Of a stretch of DNA of 55,758 nucleotides, positions 8,101 through 28,756 are shown piece after piece. The notes under the pieces are model-generated. The model searched no databases. It saw nothing but the letters and a program-made list of their open reading frames with translations, and was not told the origin of the DNA. The stretch comes from Allobrachymonas sp. GTDB taxonomy: Bacteria; Pseudomonadota; Gammaproteobacteria; Burkholderiales; Burkholderiaceae_C. Location: NCBI GenBank assembly GCA_030529505.1, contig JAUMWT010000010.1:1-55758 (forward strand), read 5' to 3'. The position numbers and the translations under genes are program-made. Each line of letters starts with the position of its first letter. Within the stretch, counting starts at the first letter, position 1.

Positions 8101-11100
8101 GAGCGGAACGTTTTCGACAATGGCGGCCAGTTTGCACAGCAAGGCGTGGTTGACCGGGTGATAGATGCCCGCGGCAAACTGGTGCAGTTCCTGCCGCACC
8201 ACTTCGGCGGCGTGGTGCAGGGCGTGGGCTTCGTCATTGCGGGCGCTGCGCTGGGCCAGGCGCTCAATGGCGTGTTCGATGCCGCGCGCCATCGAGGCCA
8301 GGCCGCCCATGCCCACGGCGGCCGAACTGCCCGCCAGCGAATGCGCCAGTTGCTCGCAGACATGCGGCACGGGCTTGTGGCTGGCCAGCACCCATTCGCT
8401 CAACTCTTGCACCAACTGGCGCGACCAGACGTCTGCCTCGTTGAGGTAGGCGTTGAACAGCGCCAGCGGAATGCGCATATCGCCCACGTGCTTGACTTCT
8501 TCGTCCGGCAGCCCGTCCACCATGTCTTGCAGCACGGCTTGCTGCGGCGTGGTGTCCACCAGCATGCCGAGCAGGGCGTTGCGGATGGACGAGTTGTCGC
8601 TGGCCGCTTGGCCGCTTGCCGGGGGCGTTGCCTGAATGGATGCAGCTTTTGCTGCTGCCGTTGTGGGGGCGGGGCTGTCGCTGACTTCAGGCGCAGCGCC
8701 AAAGATGGGCAGATGCAGCAAGGGCGCGTCAGCATCTGCATTGGCACCGCTTGCGGATGCAGCGGGGGCCGTGCTCGCTTCATCGGCAAACAGTTGCTCG
8801 TCAGCAGCGGGGAAGGGCGTTGCCTCGCTTGCCGGGGCAGCCGCGCCATCGTTCAGTGAAAGGCTGGGCAGATCGAAAGACAGGCCGAAGGGCGAAGCGG
8901 GGTCGGCGGCGGGTGCGGCCGGGGCGTTTGCTGGCGCAGCAGCGTCCTCCGGCGCGAAGGGGCTGTCTTCGCCTTGCGTCGCAAGGGGCGATGGCTGGCC
9001 GCTTGCCGCGATCAAGGCGGGCAGATCCAAAGCGGCGCCTGGCTGCGCTTGAGCGCCAGCGGCTTGGCTGCCTGGCCCTGGCGCATTCAGATCCAGCGAA
9101 GGCAGTTCGCCCAGGAAATGCTCTAGCGACAAGGCCGGCGCGGTGGGGGCCGCTGCTGCCGCATTGCTCGCATCGGCGGTGTCGATGTCGTCGGCAAAGG
9201 GGGAGGCCTCGTCATCGGCCGTGCTGGCGGGCGTGGCTTCCAGCGGCGGCAGTGCCAGCAGCGGGGCATTCAATTCCAGCAAGGGGGTGCCGGGTACGAT
9301 TGCGCTTGCCTGCGTGCTGCTGGCTTTGCTGGCAGCAGGCGCGTCGTCGATCAGAGCAGGCGGCTCGTCGGCGAACAGGGGCGGCTCAACGGCGGCTTCG
9401 CTTGTTTCGGCTGCAGGCGCAGGCGATTCGATGATGGCGCTTGGCAGCCGTTCGGCGGTCGGCTCGGCTTTGGTTTCGTCTGCTGCAAAGACGGCTGCGG
9501 CTTCCTCGCTGGCCGGTTCAGCCGCGGCTGTGGCCGTTGCTTCTGTCGGCGCTTCCGGTGCAAACAACAGTTCGTCTGCATCGCCTGCCAATGCATCGCT
9601 GGCCGGGGCAGGTGCTGGGGCAGCACCGTCGGTATCGGCCGCAAACACAGGCGCATCGCTGCTGGCGTCGGCCTCTGGCAGGGCAGAAAGAATCGGCGCT
9701 TCGCCGGGGATGGCGATGGGCAGGAAGCGCCCCTCTTCTTGCATGGCCGCGGCGGGCTGGCTGAAGTAGGCGTGGTGCCAGCGCGTTTTTTCCTGGCGGG
9801 CGATGGATTCGCGCCATTCGGTCAGGGCCTCCAGCGCATTGGTGGCCAGTTGCAGCAGGGGCTGGGTGGCGGGTTTGGCATCGGCCAGCCAGCCGTTGAG
9901 GGTGCGCTCCAACTCCCAGGCGGCTTCGCCGAACGAGGCCAAGCCCACCATGCGGCCGCTGCCTTTGAGGGTGTGAAAGGCGCGGCGCAGATTGGTGAGT
10001 TGCGCGGTGTCGGCCGGATTGTCTTGCAGCGCCTCGATGGCGGTGAGGGCGTTGCCGATGACTTCGGCGGCTTCTTCCAGGAAGATGTCGCGCAGGTCCT
10101 CTTCTTCGATGGGGGTGTCGACGATGCCGTCTTCGGGCAGGGCCGGGGCAGCGGCTGCCGGGGCCAGGGAGGGCGCCAAGGTGGAAACGGCCAAGGCCAG
10201 GGCCTCGGGGTTTTCAGCCTCGGCGGTTTGCAGGCTGCTGAGGGCCTGGCGGGCTTGTTGCGCCAGGGCGGGCTGCCCGGCCAGCTCGGCTTGCCGGATG
10301 ACGCCGCCGAGCTGTTCAGCGGCCGTGGCGCTGGAGAGGGTGCCAGCCGCTTGCGCGCTGACCAGATCATCCAAGGCCGGGATGTGCGTTTGCCCCAGTT
10401 GCGTGCTGGTGGTGCCCGTGTGGTCGATGGCGGGCGTGGCGGCCTCGCTTGCGGCGGCCGTTGCTGCCGGGGCGTGGACGGCCACGTTGCGGTGGGCCAG
10501 TTCTTGCGCGCTTGCGTCGAAATGGAACTGGGCCTTGGCCAGTGCGGGCTGGTAGGCCATCATGTCGAGCATGAAGGACAGCGCGCCCAGGCTGTTGCCG
10601 AGTTTGAGCACGATGGCTTGATCGGCCGGGGCGTCGATGGAGCCGGTCTGTTCTGAAGCATCCACCAATTGCTGCGCCTGCCGCGCCATGACAGTGAGGG
10701 CCTGGCTGGCCTCTTCGTAGTTGAGGGCCAGCAGCACGCCGGCGATCTTGCCAAGCTTGCCGACCGAATCGCGGGCTTGCTGCGTTTTTTGCGGATGGCG
10801 GAAGAAGTCGTCCAGCGCCTGTTCCACCTCGCCAACGGCGGTGCGGGCCTCCAGCACGACCTGGGCCAGGCTGTCCTGGTCGTTGAGCCGCGCGTACAGC
10901 GCCTCCATCCATTCGGTGGGGGGCTCCATCTGCTCGCTGTGCTGCACGGTTTGCAGGCGCTGCGCGAGCAGGGCGATGCGTTCTTCAAACTGCTTGCTGT
11001 CGCCCGGCGCCTCTTCGGCCGAGGCTTCGAGGAACAGGATGGCGGTGGCCACTTCCATGGCCACGTCGGGGTGGGGCGCCTGCCCGCTTTCAGCGGCTTG

Positions 11101-19123: not shown

Positions 19124-19497
19124 GAAGCTGTTCACAGTTCCTTCGCGGGCGCTTGAATATTGAATATGTAGGTGGGCAGTCTGGGGTCAATCGAACGGCT
19201 GGGTGGACGCAGAAAACGCAGAAGTCGCGCAAAGGACACTGAAATTTCAGAACAGGCACAGCAGTTGGCTCATCAAGAACGGCCGGCTCCGCCCCCCAAT
19301 TTGTTTGCCATGCTGCGATGCGCTTACGTCACACTACAGGCATCCAAAGAAATCTGCGAATCGCTGCGCTCTCTCTGCCTCTGCGGTGGAAACAGCTTGA
19401 AAAACTTTTGCGGCTTTGGCGAAATCTCTGCGCCTTCTGCGTCCTGATTCAAGCCTTGCCATATCAAGCGAATCGCGTTGAGATCTTGAACAGGCTC
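19124..19497 (+). mobile_element. MITE-like element, long type (374 bp), inserted at the acyltransferase stop codon
   Basis: Left end GAAGCTGTTCACAGTTCC, right end GAGATCTTGAACAGGCTC, flanked by TGA at 19121-19123 and TGA at 19498-19500. Its core contains CTCTGCG-type blocks (for example CTCTGCCTCTGCGGTG) and aligns along its whole length with the reverse complement of 34719-35065. The left arm GCGGGCGCTTGAA is shared with the short elements. Non-coding; small frames inside translate the repeat. Confidence 0.8.
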
Positions 19498-19853: not shown

Positions 19854-20993
19854 ATGAAGCGATCTTTATCTTCAGCAATTGCCATGCTCGCATCGGCTGC
19901 GATATTTGCTGCCGCTCAAACCGCGTATGCGGCACCGCCTGCTCCAGCCAAGCAGGGAGAAACGCGAGTGATTAACGACACGATGGGCCGCAAGGTCACC
20001 ATCCAGAAAGATGTGGGCAAGATCATTGCCATCCCCTGGCCCTGGTCGAGCTTCGTTTTTGCGCTGGATGGAAAGGCCGACAGAATTTCCACCATGAGCA
20101 CGACGGCGCTGGCCTCGTACAAAAACAGCATGTTCCAGCGCCTGGCCCCCGGTTTGGCCAATTCCAAAACCAATTACATCGACGACCAGAACAAGGACGG
20201 CGGTGTTTTCGGCACGCTCAATGCCGAAGAAATTGCCAAAATCAATCCTTCCATGGTGCTGATTTACGAGCGCGAAAAAAATACGCTGTTGCCCGTGCTG
20301 GAGTCTGTAAAAATTCCGACGGTTGTGATTCAATATGGCGGCATTCCTGAGATGCAGAAAGGCTTGCTGCTGCTGGGCGATATTTTGGGCGAGCATGCCA
20401 AGAAAAATGCGAACACCATCGTCAATTGGCATGTCAATACAGAAAAACTGATCAAAGACAGGCTGAAAAACCTGCCCGAAAACAAAAAGCCGAAGATATT
20501 GCTCTTCTATAACGGCAAAATCCTGCGCCCATCTGCACGTCTATACGATAACAAGATGATTGAAACGGCAGGCGGTAAAAACGTGGCTGCTTCAAAAGCG
20601 AATCTGAGCGGTGCCGAGCAAGTCAGCTTCGAGCAGGTGTTGGCTTGGGATCCAGACATCATCCTGGTGGGCAATTTTGCAGACCATAAGCCTGACGATA
20701 TCTATGCCAACAAGCTGGCTGATAGAAACTGGCAACAGCTGAGAGCCGTTAAAAACAAAAGGGTTTACAAAGTTCCCATGGGGATTTACCGCTGGGATGC
20801 GCCTAATACAGAAGCCCATTTGTTCCAGCTGTGGTTGGCAAAAATGATGCATCCCGAGCGGTTTGCAGACATTTCTCTTGAAAAATACACCAGGGATTTT
20901 TACAAGACCTTGTTTAATCACAATCTGACGGATGCGGAAATGGCCATGATTTATCACGATGCGCTGAACGCCAAGTCCGTGAAGATCAAATAA
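19854..20993 (+). CDS. periplasmic binding protein of a FecB/BtuF-type metal-chelate ABC transporter
   Basis: 379-residue substrate-binding protein (cluster A-II/class III, the fold used for siderophores, heme, cobalamin and some oxyanions). A Sec signal peptide (MKRSLSSAIAMLASAAIFAAAQTAYAA) with an AYA-A cleavage site and no lipobox cysteine points to a soluble periplasmic protein. Family signs are DTMGRKVTIQKDVGKIIAI, VFGTLNAEEIAKINPSMVLIY, FEQVLAWDPDIILVG and a C-terminal FADISLEKYTRDFYK. Unlike the two binding proteins further on, it has an unusual IPWPWSSFVFAL segment and a Lys-rich, AT-richer coding sequence, which suggests transfer. GGAAGGGA before the ATG supports the start. The permease follows after 2 bp. 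Substrate unknown. Confidence 0.88.
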   Translation: MKRSLSSAIAMLASAAIFAAAQTAYAAPPAPAKQGETRVINDTMGRKVTIQKDVGKIIAIPWPWSSFVFALDGKADRISTMSTTALASYKNSMFQRLAPGLANSKTNYIDDQNKDGGVFGTLNAEEIAKINPSMVLIYEREKNTLLPVLESVKIPTVVIQYGGIPEMQKGLLLLGDILGEHAKKNANTIVNWHVNTEKLIKDRLKNLPENKKPKILLFYNGKILRPSARLYDNKMIETAGGKNVAASKANLSGAEQVSFEQVLAWDPDIILVGNFADHKPDDIYANKLADRNWQQLRAVKNKRVYKVPMGIYRWDAPNTEAHLFQLWLAKMMHPERFADISLEKYTRDFYKTLFNHNLTDAEMAMIYHDALNAKSVKIK

Positions 20994-20995
20994 GC

Positions 20996-21985
20996 ATGCT
21001 GCTGAAAAAATCCGGCTGGGTATGGCCACTGCTGTTGCTGCTGATTGTGCTGGCCGTGCTCATGTCGCTGGCGATTGGGCGCTATCCGCTGTCGCTGGCA
21101 AGCGTGTTGAAGGTGATTTTCAACCCGATGGAAGACGATATTGCCAACAATATCGTCTTGTCGGTGCGCTTGCCGCGCGTGCTGTTGGCCCTGATGGTGG
21201 GCGCCGGCCTGGCCATATCGGGGGCGTGCTTTCAGGGGGTTTTTCAAAATCCCCTGGTCAGCCCCGATGTGTTGAGCGTCAGCTCCGGCTCCGCTTTTGG
21301 TGCGGTGCTGGGCATCATGACGCTCAACACGGGCTGGTCCAACACCTTGTTTGCCCTGGTGTTTGGCTGCGTCAGCGTTTTCCTCACGTATTCCATGGCC
21401 AGGATTCGCGGCCAGGTCACGGCGCTGAGCCTGGTGCTTTCGGGCATCATCATTGCCGCATTTTTCAATGCATTGATTTCTGTCATGAAATACGTGGCGG
21501 ATACGGAAACGCAATTGCCCACCATCACTTACTGGCTGCTGGGCAGCTTTGCCGCAGCCACCTACCAGCACGTTTTGACGATCGTGGCGCCTGTTTTGCT
21601 GGGGGCTGCGGTGTTGCTGGCAATGGCCTACAAAATCAACATCCTGTCGTTGGGGGATGAAGAGGCGCGCATCCTGGGCATCAACCCCGTGCATTCGCGC
21701 ATCATCATCATCGCCGCTGCCACCTTGGTAACGGCTGCATGCGTAACCGTTACCGGCATCGTGGGCTGGGTGGGCCTGGTGATACCGCATATCGCGCGCA
21801 TGATCGTCGGGCCGGATCACGGCAAACTGCTGCCTGCTTCCCTGCTGATGGGGGCTTCTTTCATGGCCTTGGTCGATTTGCTGGCGCGCACGGTCAGCCC
21901 GTCTGAAATACCCGTGGGCATACTCACGGCGCTTTTGGGCGCGCCTTTTTTCGCCATTCTGTTCAGAAAAACGCAGGGTGGCTGA
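20996..21985 (+). CDS. FecCD-type ABC transporter permease
   Basis: 329-residue inner-membrane permease of the BtuC/FecCD family, expected to span the membrane about ten times per subunit and act as a homodimer. Family motifs: SVRLPRVLLALMVGAGLAISGACFQGVFQNPLVSPDVLSVSSGSAFG, the ALSLVLSGI segment, and the coupling and C-terminal motif GWVGLVIPHIARMIVGPDHGKLLPASLLMGA. Starts 2 bp after the binding-protein stop. It belongs with the preceding binding protein and the following ATPase. Confidence 0.93.
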   Translation: MLLKKSGWVWPLLLLLIVLAVLMSLAIGRYPLSLASVLKVIFNPMEDDIANNIVLSVRLPRVLLALMVGAGLAISGACFQGVFQNPLVSPDVLSVSSGSAFGAVLGIMTLNTGWSNTLFALVFGCVSVFLTYSMARIRGQVTALSLVLSGIIIAAFFNALISVMKYVADTETQLPTITYWLLGSFAAATYQHVLTIVAPVLLGAAVLLAMAYKINILSLGDEEARILGINPVHSRIIIIAAATLVTAACVTVTGIVGWVGLVIPHIARMIVGPDHGKLLPASLLMGASFMALVDLLARTVSPSEIPVGILTALLGAPFFAILFRKTQGG

Positions 21986-21986
21986 T

Positions 21987-22760
21987 ATGTTCCTGGAAGT
22001 TTGCAACGGCAGCTATCGCTATCCGGGTGCGTCTGCGCCGGTTTTGTCGGATATTTCCATGAGCGTGCGCCCCAACACGGTCATGACCATTCTGGGGCGC
22101 AATGGCATTGGCAAAACCACATTGATCAAATGCATGGCGGGCATATTGCCCTGGACGAAAGGGCGCTCCCTGATCAAGGGCAAAGAAATCCAGTCGGTGA
22201 AAGACACGGCGACGATTGCCTTTGTGCCGCAGGCCTACAAATTGAGCTACCCCTACACGGTGAAGGACTTGGTTGTGATGGGGCGGGTGCGGCACATGGG
22301 CATGCTCTCGATTCCCTCCAAAAAAGACAGGGAAGTGGCCGAACAGGTGCTGCACGAGTTGGGCATTGCCGACTTGGCAGACAGGGATGCGACCAAGCTG
22401 TCAGGCGGGCAGCGGCAGTTGGCCTTCATCGCCCGTGCGCTGGCGAGCGAGCCGGAAATGCTGGTGATGGACGAGCCCGAATCGCATCTGGACTTCAAAA
22501 ACCAGCACTTCATCTTGCGCTTGATCAGCCAGCTGGTGCGGCAGAAAGGCTTGGCCTGCATCATTAACACGCACTATCCCGAGCATGCCTTGCGCATATC
22601 CGATGCCACGCTGATGTTGGGCGAAGGCAAATACTGCGTGGGGCCAACCGAAGAAATCATTACCGAAGCCAATATCCGGGATTATTTTGATGTGAGGGCC
22701 AGAATTTCTGAAATAGAAGACGAGGGCCGAACATACAAAACGTTTTTTGTGCTGGGCTGA
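21987..22760 (+). CDS. ABC transporter ATP-binding protein (FepC/BtuD-like)
   Basis: 257-residue ATPase that powers the preceding permease. Walker A GRNGIGKTT, Q-loop region FVPQAYKLSYPYTV, signature LSGGQRQLAFIARAL, Walker B MLVMDEPESHLD and switch His in INTHYPEHA are present. The permease stop (21983-21985) is just before the ATG at 21987; AGGGTGG lies at good spacing. A GTG at 21978 overlapping the permease end is the alternative. It ends a three-gene operon; a bidirectional terminator follows at about 22987. Confidence 0.92.
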   Translation: MFLEVCNGSYRYPGASAPVLSDISMSVRPNTVMTILGRNGIGKTTLIKCMAGILPWTKGRSLIKGKEIQSVKDTATIAFVPQAYKLSYPYTVKDLVVMGRVRHMGMLSIPSKKDREVAEQVLHELGIADLADRDATKLSGGQRQLAFIARALASEPEMLVMDEPESHLDFKNQHFILRLISQLVRQKGLACIINTHYPEHALRISDATLMLGEGKYCVGPTEEIITEANIRDYFDVRARISEIEDEGRTYKTFFVLG

Positions 22761-22986
22761 AGTTGCGCACTGGCCAGGTCATGGGCTTTGAGGCTTGGCG
22801 GAGCGTGTCTTGTTGCAGGCTGGGCGCGTGATTTGCTTAAAAGTGGGCAGGTGGCAGGAGCCACGAAGCGATGTCGCGGCGCGGCCAAATCAAACAATAG
22901 ATGCTGTGCCGCTTGCATTGCCTGCCTCAAGCAGGAGATTGCGAGACGCTACTGGAGTCAGCTTCTGCACTTTGGTGTATCAACTA
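22761..22986. other. 3' region between the two converging uptake operons
   Basis: Nothing recognisable as a gene between the ATPase stop and the terminator hairpin. I looked for riboswitch-like features and found none. Confidence 0.4.
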
Positions 22987-23021
22987 GAAAAAGGGCCTTG
23001 GTTTATAGCCAAGGCCCTTTT
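22987..23021. terminator. bidirectional intrinsic terminator between the two ABC operons
   Basis: A perfect stem AAGGGCCTTGG / CCAAGGCCCTT with loop TTTATAG, an A-run on the left and a T-run on the right. It can end the plus-strand operon (stop at 22760) and the minus-strand operon (stop at 23119). Confidence 0.9.
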
Positions 23022-23118
23022 GCATGGGCCGATCAGCAAGCACAAACCGCAGTTGGCGCAGTTGGGCAGAGCTTTGCGTCAGCCAGTCTGCTCGCAGCCT
23101 GGATGCCCGCTGCCAGCT

Positions 23119-23727
23119 TCAATGCGGCAGGCAGCTGCGGCACAGCAGCCGCCCGTCCACTTCTTGCAGCTTGCAGCCCATCACCGGTTCGCCGCATTGG
23201 GAGCAGGGCTTGGAAGGCTCCATGCGGGCCTTGGGCGGCAGGGCCTGGTGGGTGGCGGTGATGGTGAACAGCTCTTCGTCGGGCGTTTCCAGAACCGCAT
23301 CGCTGCGCTGCTGGTGCAGTTGCTGGAATTCGGCCCTTTCTGCCTCGTTGAGGCTGCCAGCCATCATTTTTTGCAGCAGTTCGCCGTGGCGTGTATGGGC
23401 TCCGGCTAGCCGCGGCTTGGTGCAGACGCGCACGCCTTGGCCGGTGTTGCGATCCAGCAGGGTCAGGGCCATCTTGCCGTGGTCTTTGTAGATGAAATTG
23501 CCTTTGCCAAAGGTGCAGCCGGTGAGCACCTGCACGGCGTCTGCGCTGCAGGCATCGGTTTCGACGATGGCGACCAGCTCTTCATCTTCGGCGCGTTGCT
23601 GTTGCTGCAAAAAGCGCATGGCCGCCTTGGCGGCCTTGTAGCCAATGGCCAGTCCGGGGCAAACGTGGCCGTGAAAGGCGGCGCAGCGTTGAAAGTCTGT
23701 ACTGGCACGGATTTCCTGGGCGTTCAT
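23119..23727 (-). CDS. FmdE-family protein with C-terminal zinc finger
   Basis: 202-residue protein of the FmdE family, named after formylmethanofuran dehydrogenase operons of methanogens; its biochemical role is not settled. The N-terminal domain has the family core FHGHVCPGLAIGYKAA (His19, His21, Cys23), ETDACSADAVQVLTGCTFGKGNFIYKDHGKMAL (Cys60, Cys71) and a possible metal or cofactor site. The last 30 residues form a zinc finger (Cys175/Cys178 and Cys196/Cys199, DksA/TraR-like). It is the last gene of the minus-strand uptake operon, 58 bp after the TrmO-like gene. GGAGA before the ATG supports the start. A role in handling the imported metal or chelate is inference from the neighbours. Confidence 0.85.
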   Translation of the reverse strand: MNAQEIRASTDFQRCAAFHGHVCPGLAIGYKAAKAAMRFLQQQQRAEDEELVAIVETDACSADAVQVLTGCTFGKGNFIYKDHGKMALTLLDRNTGQGVRVCTKPRLAGAHTRHGELLQKMMAGSLNEAERAEFQQLHQQRSDAVLETPDEELFTITATHQALPPKARMEPSKPCSQCGEPVMGCKLQEVDGRLLCRSCLPH

Positions 23728-23784
23728 GGTGTAAGTCTCCTGATGGCATTGGGTTCGGCGTATTCGGAACAGGGGCTGCAGGGA

Positions 23785-24327
23785 TCAGTTCTGCATTTCT
23801 TTTTGCAGCTCTTGCATCCATTGCGGCACGGTGATTTCGCCTTCGGCCAGGTAGCTGCGGCCCGAATGCGGCTTGATGTCGATGATGGGGCTGCCATCCA
23901 CTGCCTCCAGCCCTTGCACGCGCAAGACGTTGCCTTTGCGTTCCAGCAGCTTCACCACGGTGACCAAGACGGGGTTGGGCCGCCCCGGCGTGCGGGTGGC
24001 AAACACGCCGCACAAGGGCAGCTCGCTGCGGCCCATGGGGTGGATCTTGCGCTGTTGCGTTTTGGCGGGGTCGAGCAGGTGCGGCCAGTACAGCACCATG
24101 AGGTGCGAATACTCTTCAACGCCATCCAGCAACTCTTCCAGTTCCGGCTGGATGACGAGATCAGCTTCTTGCTGGGCGTAGCGCCGGTACGGCGACGCTT
24201 GGGAAGCCGCTGCTTCACGCTCGGCGCCCTTGGCGCAACCCGTGCTCAGTTGCACGCTGCTGCGAATGTAGCCGATGGGCGTGAGCCGCAGGGGCAGGGT
24301 GGCGGTGGAGTCGGTAGAGGGATTCAT
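23785..24327 (-). CDS. TrmO/TsaA-like SAM-dependent methyltransferase domain protein
   Basis: 180-residue protein of the TsaA/TrmO (YaeB/VirR) family. E. coli TrmO N6-methylates t6A37 in tRNA-Thr with SAM; stand-alone bacterial and archaeal relatives often have unknown substrates. Seen here: LTPIGYIRSS, LVIQPELEELLDGVEEYSHLMVLYWPHLL, GVFATRTPGRPNPVLVTVVKLLERKGNVLRVQGLEAVDGSPIIDIKPH. It lacks the C-terminal domain of E. coli TrmO (about 235 residues), so it is the short form. AAGGAG lies ahead of the ATG at 24327. It is embedded in a metal-uptake operon between a binding protein and FmdE, which points to a role other than tRNA housekeeping, but this is inference. Confidence 0.85.
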   Translation of the reverse strand: MNPSTDSTATLPLRLTPIGYIRSSVQLSTGCAKGAEREAAASQASPYRRYAQQEADLVIQPELEELLDGVEEYSHLMVLYWPHLLDPAKTQQRKIHPMGRSELPLCGVFATRTPGRPNPVLVTVVKLLERKGNVLRVQGLEAVDGSPIIDIKPHSGRSYLAEGEITVPQWMQELQKEMQN

Positions 24328-24381
24328 GCGAGGCTCCTTTGTGAAAAATGAACGGAGAGGTTGCAATAGCGTGAGGTTGCA

Positions 24382-25503
24382 TCAGGGCTTGAAAACGATT
24401 TTTTCGCCCAGCGTGCCGTGGCTTTTCTGCATATCGGCGTAAACCGGCTTGCCGACCATGAAGGTGTAGATTTCATCGGCCTTGCGTGCCAGATCCACAT
24501 CGGCAAACTGCTGCGGGTACAGCACCTTGCCCACGGCATAGGCGTCGGCAATGGCGGTATCGACGTTGACGGTGTAGAACACGAAAGGCAGCAGGCGATA
24601 GACCTGTTGCTTTTGCACGGCGCTCAGGGCCTGGTAAAACTGCGGGTTCTTGCGATAGTCTTCTTGCACGAGTGGGAAGCCGCTTGCATCCACGAAGATG
24701 GTTTCGGGGTTGAGTTTGAGCAGCATTTCCTTGTCGAGCTTGAGGTGGCCGTGGCTGCCCTGGCCTTTTTCCGGCAAGGCCTTGACGGCATTGTTCACGC
24801 CCAGCCATTCAAACGGAAAGTACAGCTTGGCCGTGCCGTTGATGCCGTGCGAGCCGCGAAAACTCACGGCGCCCACATAAGCTGTTTTTTGGGGAACGCC
24901 TTTGACGCGCTTGCGCAAATCTTGCTCGGCAGCCTGGATGTAGGAAATGACGGCTTCGGCACGCTGTTCGCGTTGCAAGGCCTTGCCTGCCACGCGCAGC
25001 GAGTTGAACAAGGCTGCGTCAATGCCGGTAGCTTGGCCGTAGTCGAGGATGACAACCGGAATGCCCAGCGTTTTCTGTACCTCGTCGGCCAACGGCACAT
25101 CCATATTGGTCATGAAGATGATTTGCGGCTGCACGGCCAGCAAGGCTTCGTATTCCGGTTTTTTATGCCCCACGCCTGATCCGCCCGGGCCGATGCGCGG
25201 AAACTGGGCCAGTTCGGGGTGGGCCGTTCGATAGGGCCTGCTGCGCTGCTTTTCGGGGTAGTTCTTTTCAATGTCTTCTACGCCCACGATTTTTTCGGTG
25301 GCTTGCAGATAGGTTAGCTGGCGCAAGGTGCCCGCGCCAATGGCCACGATGCGGCTGGGGTTGTGCGGCACAGTCACGCTGCGGCCCAGGGTGTCTTTAA
25401 CGGTCACGGTGGGGGGCGCTGCCTGTGCCCACGAGGCAGCCAGCATGAGCAGCATGGCGCTGGCAGTCAGAAACTTTTGCTTGATGGCTCGGGGAGTTTT
25501 CAT
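24382..25503 (-). CDS. periplasmic binding protein of metal-chelate ABC transporter (paralogue 2)
   Basis: 373-residue FecB-type binding protein with a Sec signal peptide (MKTPRAIKQKFLTASAMLLMLAASWAQAA). It has VTVKDTLGRSVTVPHNPSRIVAIG, an unusual RPYRTAHPELAQFPRIGPGG block, YEALLAVQPQIIFMT, AYVGAVSFRGSHGINGT and a C-terminal RKADEIYTFMVGKPVY. It is clearly paralogous to the gene just upstream (25548-26663): the same blocks recur in the same order. No lipobox. GGAG before the ATG at 25503. The YVG.(V/I)S(F/Y)(R/K)G.HGI block is typical of binding proteins that I recall from anaerobes and archaea near FmdE genes (established association only from memory). Confidence 0.88.
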   Translation of the reverse strand: MKTPRAIKQKFLTASAMLLMLAASWAQAAPPTVTVKDTLGRSVTVPHNPSRIVAIGAGTLRQLTYLQATEKIVGVEDIEKNYPEKQRSRPYRTAHPELAQFPRIGPGGSGVGHKKPEYEALLAVQPQIIFMTNMDVPLADEVQKTLGIPVVILDYGQATGIDAALFNSLRVAGKALQREQRAEAVISYIQAAEQDLRKRVKGVPQKTAYVGAVSFRGSHGINGTAKLYFPFEWLGVNNAVKALPEKGQGSHGHLKLDKEMLLKLNPETIFVDASGFPLVQEDYRKNPQFYQALSAVQKQQVYRLLPFVFYTVNVDTAIADAYAVGKVLYPQQFADVDLARKADEIYTFMVGKPVYADMQKSHGTLGEKIVFKP

Positions 25504-25547
25504 CAGTTGGCTCCTTGTTGACGCGGTGGGGTTGATGGCAAAGGCTT

Positions 25548-26663
25548 TCAGGGGGCTGCAACAACGGCGCCCAAATCACCATAACTGCTTTGCATGCTGG
25601 AATAAACCGGCTTGCCGACCATGAAGGTGTAGATTTCATCGGCCTTGCATTGCAGGTGGATGTCGGCGAACTGCGCGGGATACAGGGCTTTGCCGACGGC
25701 ATAAGCGTCCACCAGGGCGGTGTCGATGTTCGAGTAGTACGACACATAGGGGAAGAGGCGGTAGACCTGCCCCGTTTGGAAGGCCTTGAGCGAGCGGAAG
25801 AAGGCGGGGTTTTTGCCCATGTCGTCTTGTATCAAGGGCCAGCCGCCTGAGTCGATGAAGAGCACATCGGGATTGAGCTTGAGCAAGGCCTCGCGATCCA
25901 GCTTGATGTGCCCAACGGGGGTGCTGGCAAAGCTTTTGGCCAGGTTGTTTGCGCCAGCCCAGTCAAACGGCAGGTAACGTTTGTTGCTGCCATTGATGCC
26001 ATGCATGCCCGCATAACTCACGCCGCCCACATAGGCCGATTGGGGCGCGATGCCTTGCACGCGGCGGCGCAAATCGGCCCGGGCGTCTTCGATGTATCGG
26101 ATGACGGCTTCGGCGCGTTGCTCGCGCTGCACGATTTTTCCCATCACGCGCAGCGATTGATACAGGTTGGCGGTGTAATTGCCTTTTTCTTCGCTGGTGT
26201 TGAGCACCACCACTGGCAGGCCCATGGTTTTTTGGGTTTCGTCGGCCAGATCGCGGCTGGGCGTGGTCATGAAAATGATGTCGGGCTTGACGGCCAGAAT
26301 GGCTTCGTAATCGGGCTTGGCTCGGCCCACGCTGGCGCCGCCCGGGCCAATGCGCGGCAGCCGGGCCAGTTCGGGGTGGGCGGTGCGGTAGGGGCGGCTT
26401 TGGTGTTTGGCGCTGTAGTTTTTCTCGATGTCTTCGGTGCCAACGGCGCGCTCGGTGACTTGCAGATAAGCCATGACCCGCATGCTGCCGCCCAGATTGG
26501 CAATCCGCTGGGGATTGGCCGGGACGGTGACCTTTCGGCCCAGCAAGTCGGTGACCGTGATGTTTGGGGCTGCGTGGGCCTGCGCTGCCACGAAAAGGCA
26601 GGCTGCTGCGGTCAGCCAGGCGGCCGTGCGGCGCCAAAGTGTTGAGTGGCTGTGTATGTGCAT
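25548..26663 (-). CDS. periplasmic binding protein of metal-chelate ABC transporter (paralogue 1)
   Basis: 371-residue FecB-type binding protein; signal peptide MHIHSHSTLWRRTAAWLTAAACLFVAAQAHAA with three His in the first ten residues. Blocks: ITVTDLLGRKVTVPANPQRIANLG, RPYRTAHPELARLPRIGPGGASVG, YEAILAVKPDIIFMT, AYVGGVSYAGMHGINGS, CKADEIYTFMVGKPVYSSMQSSYGDLG. It is a tandem duplicate of the downstream gene with 44 bp between them. AAGGAG precedes the ATG at 26663. The two may bind different forms of one substrate or act at different times; substrate unknown. Confidence 0.88.
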   Translation of the reverse strand: MHIHSHSTLWRRTAAWLTAAACLFVAAQAHAAPNITVTDLLGRKVTVPANPQRIANLGGSMRVMAYLQVTERAVGTEDIEKNYSAKHQSRPYRTAHPELARLPRIGPGGASVGRAKPDYEAILAVKPDIIFMTTPSRDLADETQKTMGLPVVVLNTSEEKGNYTANLYQSLRVMGKIVQREQRAEAVIRYIEDARADLRRRVQGIAPQSAYVGGVSYAGMHGINGSNKRYLPFDWAGANNLAKSFASTPVGHIKLDREALLKLNPDVLFIDSGGWPLIQDDMGKNPAFFRSLKAFQTGQVYRLFPYVSYYSNIDTALVDAYAVGKALYPAQFADIHLQCKADEIYTFMVGKPVYSSMQSSYGDLGAVVAAP

Positions 26664-26693
26664 GGCTTTCTCCTTGCGCTTGAAATGAAACTC

Positions 26694-27449
26694 TCAGATC
26701 GGCACCACCATGGGGTGCCCGTTGCATTGGTGCAGCGACACCGCTACGTCGTACACCCGTTCAATCAGTTCGGGCGAAAAGCCCGCGCGGTCGGTGATGG
26801 CCTGTACTTTCTTGTCCTTGAGGAACAGGAATTTGTCGCCAAAGCGCATGGCCATGTTCAGATCGTGAATGGTGAGCACGACCGCCAGGTTTTGCGCGCG
26901 CGTGATGCCTTGCACCAGGCGCATGACTTCGATCTGGTTTTTCAGATCCAGATTGCTGATGGGCTCATCCAGCAACAGCACGCTGGGCGACTGCGCCAGG
27001 GCGCGCGCGATGATGACCTTTTGCAGCTGCCCGCCGCTCAGGCTGTTGATGGGGCGCATGGACAGGGCCTGCAAGCCGAGCTGCTGCAGGATCTGTTCGA
27101 CCAGGGCATAGTCCTGCTCGCGCAAAGACCACTGCACATGCGGGCGGCGGCCCATGAGCACGGCTTCGTAAACGCTGAGCAGCGATTCGGGGTGCTTTTG
27201 CGGCACGTAGCCGATGTGGCGGGCGACCTCGCGCTGCGGCATCTCGAACACGGCTTGGCCGTCCACCAGCACGCTGCCTTTGCTGGGCTTCAGGATGCGG
27301 TTGATGCATTTCAGCAGGGTGGATTTGCCCGCGCCGTTGGCGCCGAGCAGGCAGAGGATTTCTCCGGGCTGCACATCGAATGCGATGTCTTGCAGCACGG
27401 CGTGGTTGCCGCGGTAGGCAAAGTCGATGCCGGAAACAGACAGCTTCAT
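26694..27449 (-). CDS. ABC transporter ATP-binding protein (FepC/BtuD-like)
   Basis: 251-residue ATPase. Walker A LLGANGAGKST, Q-loop region YVPQKHPESLLSVYEAVLMGRRPH, signature LSGGQLQKVIIARAL, Walker B VLLLDEPISNLDL and LTIHDLNMA switch are all present. The start ATG at 27449 overlaps the permease stop (ATGA), so the two are translationally coupled. It partners the His-rich permease and the two downstream binding proteins. Confidence 0.93.
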   Translation of the reverse strand: MKLSVSGIDFAYRGNHAVLQDIAFDVQPGEILCLLGANGAGKSTLLKCINRILKPSKGSVLVDGQAVFEMPQREVARHIGYVPQKHPESLLSVYEAVLMGRRPHVQWSLREQDYALVEQILQQLGLQALSMRPINSLSGGQLQKVIIARALAQSPSVLLLDEPISNLDLKNQIEVMRLVQGITRAQNLAVVLTIHDLNMAMRFGDKFLFLKDKKVQAITDRAGFSPELIERVYDVAVSLHQCNGHPMVVPI

Positions 27450-28756
27450 CGGTAGCTCTTCACCAGGGTGTACAGGAACATGGGGGCGCCCAAGCAAGAG
27501 GTGATGACACCCACGGGCAGGCTGCCCGTGCCGATGATGACGCGGCCGATCGTGTCAGACGCCAGCAGCAGCACAGCCCCCAGCACGCACGAAAAAGGCA
27601 CGAGCAGGCGGTGGTCGGCCCCGACCAGGCGGCGCGCCATATGGGGCGCGACCAAACCCACAAAAGCGATCACGCCAAAAAAGGCCGTGGCCAGGGCAGA
27701 CACCAAGGCCGCCGTGACCACACCGGCCATGCGCGTGCGCTTGACGTTCACGCCCAGGCCCTTGGCGGCCTCTTCGCCCGAGATCAGCGCATTCATGTCC
27801 CAGCGTTTGCTGTAAAGGTAGATGCTTGCCAGCAGCACGCCAATGCTCATCAGGCTGATCTCGCGCCAGCTGGCCCGGGCGATGTCGCCAAAGGTCCAGA
27901 ACACCACCATGGCCAACTGCGTGTCGCTGGCCAGAAACTGCAGCAGGATGGTGCCCGAGGTAAAGAGCGAGGAAAGCGCCACGCCCGAGAGCACCACGGC
28001 TTCAACCGACAAACGCTTCAAGCTCGCCAGCACCAGCACCACGGCGGTGGCGCTGATCGCACCGGCAAAGGCAAAGGCCGTCACCAAATACATGTGCGCT
28101 TGCAGCAAAACGATGGATGTGGCCGCGCCAAAAGCCGCGCCCTGGCTGATGCCAATGGTCGAGGGTGAAGCCAGCGGGTTTTTGAGCATGGTTTGAATCG
28201 TCAGGCCAGCCAAGGCCAGGCCCCAGCCACACACCAGCGCGCCCACAACCCGCGGCATGCGAATGCGCCAGATGGCGACTTGGGAGGCATCCTCGCCCTG
28301 GCCCATGAACACATGCAGCAACTCTTTCAATGAGATGGAGTAGGCGCCAAAACGGATGGCAAAGAGCGCAATGGCCGCCATCGCACCCAGCAAAACAAGC
28401 AGCCACAACCAGCGCTGGTGGTTGTGCGCCAGGTATTGCTGCGTGATGCTGCCTGGGGCGCGATGGTTCACGGCATGGGCGTGCCAGGCGTGTTCGGCGG
28501 TTTGCCGGGCGTCAGACAGTGCGGGATCAAGTGCTTGGGCGGCCGCGCTGCCCACGGAATGGGTATGCGCATGGCTGTGCGAGCCAGTGGCCTGCTGTGG
28601 ATGCGCGTGCGGGTGTGAGTGGCTGTAATTGCGCGCAGGCTGGTGCGCTGGTGCGGGGGGCGAAGCGTCCGTTGTCGGGCACGGCTTGGACGGATGGAGC
28701 GATCCGCGCCCTTGCGCTTCTTGCACTGGCTTTTCTGATGAATGGTCTGCTGGCAT
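27446..28756 (-). CDS. FecCD-type ABC permease with a long His-rich N-terminal extension
   Basis: 436-residue permease. The last about 320 residues are a normal BtuC/FecCD domain (IWRIRMPRVVGALVCGWGLALAGLTIQTMLKNPLASPSTIGISQGAAFG; FFGVIAFVGLVAPHMARRLVGADHR). The first about 110 residues are an extra hydrophilic domain rich in Pro, Ala and His, with clusters such as HSHPHAHPQQ and SHSHAHTHS and further His up to the first membrane helix. His-rich cytosolic arms occur in Ni, Co and Zn transporters and bind metal, so the cargo may be such a metal or its chelate (inference). AAGGAG precedes the ATG at 28756. It is the first gene of the six-gene minus-strand operon; a likely promoter lies at 28804-28833. 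Confidence 0.92.
   Translation of the reverse strand: MPADHSSEKPVQEAQGRGSLHPSKPCPTTDASPPAPAHQPARNYSHSHPHAHPQQATGSHSHAHTHSVGSAAAQALDPALSDARQTAEHAWHAHAVNHRAPGSITQQYLAHNHQRWLWLLVLLGAMAAIALFAIRFGAYSISLKELLHVFMGQGEDASQVAIWRIRMPRVVGALVCGWGLALAGLTIQTMLKNPLASPSTIGISQGAAFGAATSIVLLQAHMYLVTAFAFAGAISATAVVLVLASLKRLSVEAVVLSGVALSSLFTSGTILLQFLASDTQLAMVVFWTFGDIARASWREISLMSIGVLLASIYLYSKRWDMNALISGEEAAKGLGVNVKRTRMAGVVTAALVSALATAFFGVIAFVGLVAPHMARRLVGADHRLLVPFSCVLGAVLLLASDTIGRVIIGTGSLPVGVITSCLGAPMFLYTLVKSYR

Follow-up and report, generated by a model that had tools for sequence, protein, structure and literature searches.

What would be imported by a transport system whose genes share an operon with those for an FmdE protein and a TrmO-like protein, and how much of the DNA around it belongs to it? 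The locus that raises this question lies in Allobrachymonas sp. (assembly GCA_030529505.1), in a stretch of 55,758 nucleotides (contig JAUMWT010000010.1, hereafter the window) that is the whole of contig C39 of a 2.39-Mb draft genome, 83.5% complete. Positions 19854..28756 hold nine open reading frames (ORFs), all intact, with Pfam matches to Peripla_BP_2 (three), FecCD (two), ABC ATPase (two), TrmO_N and FmdE; these form a three-gene operon A on the plus strand and a six-gene operon B on the minus strand, which run towards each other with an inverted repeat (22988-23021) between them. A sequence-only reading had described nine genes in two converging operons, as the coordinates and families confirm, and had joined them into one island for the uptake of a metal or metal chelate. 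We hold it probable that operon B encodes an importer of nickel, or of a nickel chelate, which belongs to the FecBCD structural type, acts in the manner of NiuBDE, was obtained from Desulfobacterota and supplies urease in this host.

Operon B joins a FecBCD-type importer to FmdE and TrmO-like proteins

Operon B brings together a binding protein, a permease and an ATPase of the FecBCD type, all encoded on the minus strand. The FecCD-type permease (27446..28756; 436 amino acids (aa); FecCD, E 7.6e-89) has a His-rich N-terminal leader with 12 histidines in residues 1-90, as had been noticed from the sequence; the copy of a genus relative (G567) also has 12, and none of 51 permeases from beyond the genus has more than 7. 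Its gene overlaps by 4 bases that of the ATPase (26694..27449; 251 aa; ABC_tran, E 3.6e-35), which is followed by the genes for two binding proteins, BP2 (25548..26663; 371 aa; Peripla_BP_2, E 1.5e-21) and BP3 (24382..25503; 373 aa; Peripla_BP_2, E 2.6e-21), whose proposed paralogy is borne out by 59% identity over 357 residues. The remaining genes encode the TrmO-like protein (23785..24327; TrmO_N, E 1.9e-25), which consists of the methyltransferase domain only and is 180 aa long if it starts at the ATG at 24327 or 193 aa if it starts at the TTG at 24366, and FmdE (23119..23727; 202 aa), with a core domain (Pfam FmdE, E 2.9e-47) and a C-terminal zinc finger (zf-dskA_traR). By eye, the ribosome-binding site is clear for five of the six genes, and formylmethanofuran dehydrogenase genes are not evident next to the operon.

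FmdE carries a conserved metal site

The window FmdE scores 160.5 bits against a curated PF02663 cut-off of 22.9. Four of its residues, H19, H21, C23 and C60, correspond in the alignment to the residues that hold Zn/Ni in the structure 2glz, and these four together with the finger cysteines C175, C178, C196 and C199 are invariant in 15 aligned sequences. For the PF02663 structures 2glz, 2gvi and 3d00, the published account describes a core domain with the same His-x-His-x-Cys...Cys metal site, names His15, His17, Cys19 and Cys55 as the metal ligands of 2glz, with mixed Zn/Ni occupancy, and gives two of the three structures a C-terminal zinc finger, as in the window protein (PMC2954224). That account already stated in 2010 that most PF02663 genes adjoin metal-ion transporters (PMC2954224); the link between FmdE and metal transport is itself not new. 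Where the present analysis differs is in tying FmdE to nickel, through nikR, NikR operators and nickel-type importers, an assignment for which no report was found in the literature searched, most subscription journals being outside its reach. Two FmdE rows were flagged with a TGA, yet the aligned part is free of stops, and a selenoprotein FmdE was rejected.

FmdE genes recur beside nickel-type importers and nikR

We pooled 151 FmdE loci (2.25 Mb, mostly Desulfobacterota; single loci are given L numbers), consisting of a first set of 80 loci from a genome scan, the best 80 of at least 570 confirmed stretches, and 71 non-redundant loci from a Desulfobacterota survey of 80 regions taken in list order, from which one region already in the first set was omitted and 9 overlaps were dropped, with some near-duplicate loci kept. 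Of the 151 loci, 46 have a FecBCD-type importer within 8.5 kb of FmdE, 20 one of the Nik/Opp type and 6 an energy-coupling factor (ECF) importer of the CbiM/CbiQ type; the FecBCD type accompanies the ECF type in 3 of these 6, and 69 loci have at least one of the three. By chance about 1.5 FecCD loci would be expected in 2.25 Mb, given 46 strong matches (counted below E 1e-50) in a background of 16 FmdE-bearing genomes (69.7 Mb). A TrmO-like gene is the immediate same-strand neighbour of FmdE in 10 loci, which come from Desulfobacterota, a Chloroflexota metagenome-assembled genome, Clostridia and Methanosarcina. The co-location of FmdE, TrmO-like and FecBCD-type genes is recurrent, where its absence would have told against the sequence-only reading, and operon B does look like an operon for metal uptake, as that reading had it.

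The regulator gene nikR is present in eight of these loci (L029, L034, L039, L070, L184, L187, L197 and L200), compared with about 0.3 expected by chance from 9 copies in the background genomes. In six of the eight it precedes FmdE in the same orientation at a distance of 80-1250 bases, and in L070 and L200 it lies 8-10 kb downstream; the proteins of L039 and L184 carry both NikR domains. NikR is encoded in 8 of the 16 FmdE genomes tested, including those of L039, L070, L076 and L089. Among the importers themselves, the Nik/Opp-type binding protein of L052 has NikA as its best match, under the cut-off, and peptide transport is possible there, while L027 runs from a DUF4198 protein, which we take to be NikK, through a small protein, CbiM, CbiQ and an ATPase to FmdE. 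In a Natrarchaeobaculum plasmid, a BP3-like binding protein, a permease and an ATPase are encoded upstream of a [NiFe] hydrogenase operon. Across the loci FmdE stays while the fold of the importer changes, which fits an acceptor that takes the ion after any importer, and we think that FmdE is probably a cytoplasmic nickel acceptor.

Several neighbourhoods hold further features. In L174, whose cluster includes CbiM and CbiQ genes, FmdE is immediately preceded by a short His-rich ORF (9225-9626), and in L200 (6211-14650) FmdE lies amid Znu-, FeoB- and Fur-like genes, its partners there not being solely of the nickel type. Control by Fur was considered and dropped: a crude motif scan found nothing but misses Fur-like genes, and blastp found Fur-like genes in 3 of the 151 loci. 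FmdE-domain proteins of about 370-400 aa with a signal-sequence-like N-terminus are encoded in L030 (8451-9653) and L065 (4651-5769), and the cluster of such proteins is found also in L033, L059 and L100, near TonB receptors; they may be periplasmic or extracytoplasmic counterparts of FmdE.

NikR operators precede FmdE operons in relatives

The NikR signal of delta-proteobacteria is given as GTGTTAC-[N13/14]-GTAACAC in PMC545781; it was known before dyads were counted, with no motif supplied, in 66 upstream regions from 34 loci. With 6-base arms the dyad GTGTTA-N15-TAACAC ranked first, in 3 loci compared with at most 2 in ten shuffles, and with 7-base arms two overlapping dyad forms were found in 2 loci compared with 1 in shuffles. 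This top-ranked dyad is the NikR signal just named.

In the first set (1.185 Mb), sites that deviate from the signal by no more than one base number four, and each precedes an FmdE-containing operon: in L070 and L076 the site stands before the FecCD permease, in L089 before the FmdE of a Nik-type operon, and in L057 before a run of ExbB, TonB, receptor and FmdE. When two mismatches are allowed, the first set has 8 sites, of which 5 are near a system gene (L057 is unscored, ExbB lying outside the query set), and the second set has 3, of which 2 are near (L187, before FmdE, and L197, before nikR). Taken together, 7 of 11 sites precede system genes or nikR, compared with 3 of the 39 sites of five control palindromes (p 0.0003 by Fisher's test, which is not a clean one here, the first set having also suggested the motif), and the reversed NikR signal has 4 sites with none before system genes. 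Operators of this kind stand before FmdE-containing operons in L039, L057, L070, L076, L089 and L187.

Urease and NikR accompany FmdE in the genus

A close FmdE copy, 58-100% identical, is present in 4 of 9 genus genomes. Urease alpha is found in three of these four FmdE-bearing genomes and in none of the five others (one-sided p 0.048), and NikR in all four and in one of the five (p 0.040), a comparison of few, related and incomplete genomes that gives support and not proof. The window's own genome has two urease alpha genes and two nikR genes, together with a NikA match above its cut-off beside nikR and urease. One stretch of this genome (L117, contig C44; 440-7119) carries nikA, nikR, a ribBA-like gene and the second urease alpha gene on a 9-kb contig, and is either a further nickel cluster or contamination.

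Relatives of the importer proteins and other cargoes

By far the best solved relative of BP2 and BP3 is 2etv (E 7e-79 and 1.6e-93), which is labelled a putative iron(III)-binding protein and is no characterised binder of heme or siderophores, so that the second condition set against the sequence-only reading does not apply either. HI_1472, presumably MolA, follows far behind (E 1e-10 for BP2 and 5e-10 for BP3), and the Helicobacter pylori nickel-binding entry 4ino matches BP3 at E 7e-4 and is absent from the matches listed for BP2. BtuC is the top NCBIfam match of both window permeases, under the cut-off.

An importer of iron-siderophore or heme, with the FmdE and TrmO genes as unrelated hitchhikers, would agree with the FecBCD family, with the TonB receptors found in 31 of the 151 FmdE loci, with the label of 2etv and with weak similarity to NCBIfam models of ferrichrome/ferrioxamine and IsdE binding proteins. 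No NCBIfam iron or heme match reaches its cut-off, however, FmdE and TrmO-like genes recur beside the importer across phyla, and NikR operators lie ahead of several FmdE operons, all of which makes this explanation very improbable in our view.

The naming of the FmdE family after operons for molybdenum/tungsten formylmethanofuran dehydrogenase had hinted at uptake of molybdate or tungstate with FmdE handling Mo/W, a hint to which one may add HI_1472 as a relative of the operon A binding protein BP1 (E 2e-27). The operator, the regulator gene and the neighbours point to nickel instead. In the 2010 survey, fmd genes adjoin only 13 of 208 PF02663 genes (PMC2954224), the operator found is the NikR signal and not one of the ModE signals of the same paper (PMC545781), and for BP2 and BP3 HI_1472 is left far behind by 2etv; we give Mo/W uptake hardly any credence.

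Cobalt, a corrinoid or a broad range of Co, Ni and Zn, with FmdE as a general divalent-metal acceptor, is a more serious candidate. NiuBDE too carries cobalt and bismuth (PMC5140060), zinc occupies the FmdE crystal site (PMC2954224), the ECF neighbours are CbiM/CbiQ by Pfam, the permeases have BtuC as their top match, and a few FmdE genes have Znu-, Feo- and Fur-like genes in their vicinity. Set against this are the nikR genes and NikR operators at FmdE clusters and the correlates tested in the genus, which were urease and NikR and not a cobalt enzyme (B12 enzymes lying outside the test), and we regard a cobalt or broad-range importer as unlikely.

Operon B resembles operons of Desulfobacterota

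In the host's family an FmdE match was found in 5 of 200 genomes, only the window's own being strong, and in its class in 5 of 369, its own included. The other four matches in the class (29-37% identity), one of which sits at a contig end, have no importer homologue adjacent except one distant ATPase. Outside the genus the nearest FmdE proteins among the matches listed are from Desulfobacterota, with up to 63% identity; 176 of 395 sampled Desulfobacterota genomes have an FmdE match at E 1e-30, and FmdE-like genes occur also in methanogens. The three genus rows used in a quick tree of 156 FmdE rows cluster together (support 97) within a 59-row clade (support 99), and of the 56 other rows of that clade 35 are titled: 32 of Desulfobacterota type, 2 as 'Proteobacteria bacterium' and 1 as Paradesulfitobacterium.

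The likeness extends over the whole operon. The locus L037 has, in order, genes for a TonB receptor, a methyltransferase, permease, ATPase, binding protein, TrmO-like protein, FmdE, a TonB receptor and a methyltransferase, with identities to operon B of 65% (permease), 58% (ATPase), 52% (binding protein), 43% (TrmO-like) and 57% (FmdE). Because both the closest FmdE kin and this whole-operon likeness are found in Desulfobacterota, the simplest reading is that operon B was probably acquired from that group by horizontal transfer. One TonB receptor of L037 (967-3318) has NCBIfam matches of the CU, PCPU, PUIUD and FCYXU motif types, under their cut-offs; an FCYXU-type receptor is listed as a selenoprotein in PMC13188914.

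Gene content varies among the genus relatives. G567 (L025) has permease, ATPase, a class I methyltransferase, binding protein, TrmO-like protein and FmdE; G569 (L024) has a TrmO-like gene (cut), binding protein, FmdE, TonB receptor and methyltransferase; and G568 (L023) has an ATPase gene (cut), TrmO-like protein, binding protein and FmdE, its TrmO-like protein having 23 histidines among the first 60 residues.

The TrmO-like protein lacks the tRNA-associated motif

The TrmO-like protein scores 98.3 bits against NCBIfam TIGR00104, above the cut-off of 93.25. Like TrmO/YaeB it has the RPN motif, which together with K165 is invariant in 20 sequences, and K165 aligns with Lys122 of the Archaeoglobus fulgidus protein, a residue that contacts S-adenosylmethionine (SAM). 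Unlike TrmO/YaeB, it is without the C-terminal domain and its DPRxxY motif and sits in a metal-uptake operon; the motif was found neither in the window protein nor in 19 relatives. In Escherichia coli TrmO the C-terminal domain with DPRxxY is required for m6t6A, and archaeal TrmO proteins also lack DPRxxY, their substrate not being established in that report (PMC4132733). Because DPRxxY is missing in all 20 sequences, a ligand or a protein is more likely than tRNA as the predicted substrate.

In the four operon-bearing genomes of the genus the operon's own copy is the only PF01980 protein, and among the five genomes without the operon three have a higher-scoring TrmO elsewhere and two have none. 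A megaplasmid of Salmonella serovar India (L020, NZ_CP022016.1; 1439-14163) encodes a BP3-like binding protein, a FecCD permease and an ATPase together with ThiF-, MoaD/ThiS- and Glu-dehydrogenase-like proteins and two of the argininosuccinate-lyase family, one of them fused to TrmO. It looks like a cluster for synthesis and uptake of a small chelator, which we offer as a lead only.

Operon A appears to be an independent importer

Operon A, on the plus strand, encodes the binding protein BP1 (19854..20993; 379 aa; Peripla_BP_2, E 2.3e-21), a FecCD permease (20996..21985; 329 aa; E 1.3e-89) and an ATPase (21987..22760; 257 aa; ABC_tran, E 2e-29). The best solved relative of BP1 is 4ovk (E 2e-69), with HI_1472 second. 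The GC content is 0.54 in operon A, 0.613 in operon B and 0.633 in the remainder of the window, and among 9 genus genomes, its own excluded, BP1 has no orthologue, the best matches being 23-28% identical. Because of the lower GC and these distant matches, operons A and B look like two separate things, A being an independent importer beside B, and membership of operon A in the FmdE system was ruled out on the same two grounds. A single functional island of nine genes with two coordinated importers, as first proposed, could draw on the terminator common to both operons and on their shared FecBCD type; set against the difference in GC, the missing genus orthologue and the merely occasional presence of operon A-like genes near FmdE elsewhere (e.g. 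L045, L221 and L234), it seems to us very unlikely.

The shared bidirectional terminator noticed earlier is a terminator-like inverted repeat (22988-23021; arms 22988-23001 and 23009-23021). It has 13 paired bases and a 7-base loop, with A/T runs flanking it on each side, and the 91 bases at 22960-23050 have folding energies of -35.8 kcal/mol for one strand and -37.9 kcal/mol for the other. A riboswitch was rejected as a control element, an Rfam search of 17.9-30.8 kb giving one miRNA-family match far under its gathering score. A dispersed intergenic repeat (core GAACAGGCTCT) occurs at window positions 19488, 28866, 29036, 34718 and 36449, flanking both operons, and also in other contigs of the same genome (L117, L118 and L127).

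The absence of a TonB receptor and of siderophore genes, also proposed earlier, stands in part. A tblastn search of the window (E 1e-4) with the two TonB receptors, methyltransferase and binding protein of a genus relative gave no match, and visual inspection of the ORFs listed between 15 and 34 kb shows no obvious siderophore-synthesis gene, no search having been aimed at such genes. A missing receptor is nonetheless not a trait of the system, given the receptors counted in other FmdE loci and the one in the genus relative L024.

Discussion

If operon B works as we propose, a nickel complex would be bound in the periplasm by BP2 and BP3 and carried inward by the His-rich permease with its ATPase. 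Cytoplasmic FmdE, serving as acceptor or chaperone, would then receive Ni2+ at its His-x-His-x-Cys...Cys site, and the TrmO-like protein, a SAM-dependent methyltransferase domain, would act either on the ligand brought in or on one of the pathway's proteins. The closest model is NiuBDE of Helicobacter pylori, a FecBCD-type importer of nickel (as well as cobalt and bismuth) with two paralogous binding proteins, NiuB1 and NiuB2, which was acquired horizontally and supplies urease (PMC5140060); operon B is read likewise. It was not filed as NiuBDE because BP2 and BP3, closest to 2etv, are not NiuB/CeuE orthologues, and it adds FmdE, the TrmO-like partner and the His-rich leader. With the NikR-controlled NikMQO system of delta-proteobacteria (PMC545781) the FmdE operons of relatives have the operator in common, whereas the importer beside FmdE is mostly of the FecBCD or Nik/Opp type and of the CbiM/CbiQ type in only 6 of 151 loci.

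A number of observations weigh against this proposal. None of the three importer types lies within 8.5 kb of FmdE in 82 of the 151 loci, and when only the 91 loci with 5 kb or more on each side are counted, 50 have an importer and 41 do not. A NikR match is absent in 8 of the 16 FmdE genomes tested, and Znu-like binding proteins (4 loci), FeoB-like proteins (4) and Fur-like proteins (3) are found by blastp among the 151. As regards the operator, no dyad with 5-base arms rises above shuffles in the 66 upstream regions, the motif was scored on the first set, which had also suggested it, while the second set alone is small (3 sites, 2 near), two of the seven near sites precede nikR itself, and near either window operon no NikR-type operator was found in the forms tried. 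The site of 2glz holds Zn and Ni at 2.6:1, and this after a nickel column (PMC2954224), and 2etv bears its iron(III) label. In the genus, beyond the smallness of the sample, G569 has FmdE and no urease was found in its genome, which is 71% complete; the contig with urease, nikR and nikA is 9 kb long in a draft with 4% contamination; and [NiFe] hydrogenase, considered as a nickel sink, had to be discarded, being absent from all 9 genomes.

A bolder extension of the nickel proposal, which we find doubtful, would make FmdE a general nickel acceptor of anaerobes that is interchangeable among FecBCD-, NikABC- and ECF-type importers. A nickel metallophore would then be imported by systems with TrmO-like and class I methyltransferase partners, SAM-dependent methylation of the ligand would unload or inactivate it, and the Salmonella megaplasmid cluster would represent the synthesis side.

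FmdE had no assigned function beyond its proximity to metal transporters, and the link to nickel makes its role testable. By the same token, a set of proteins annotated as the tRNA methyltransferase TrmO may act on another substrate.

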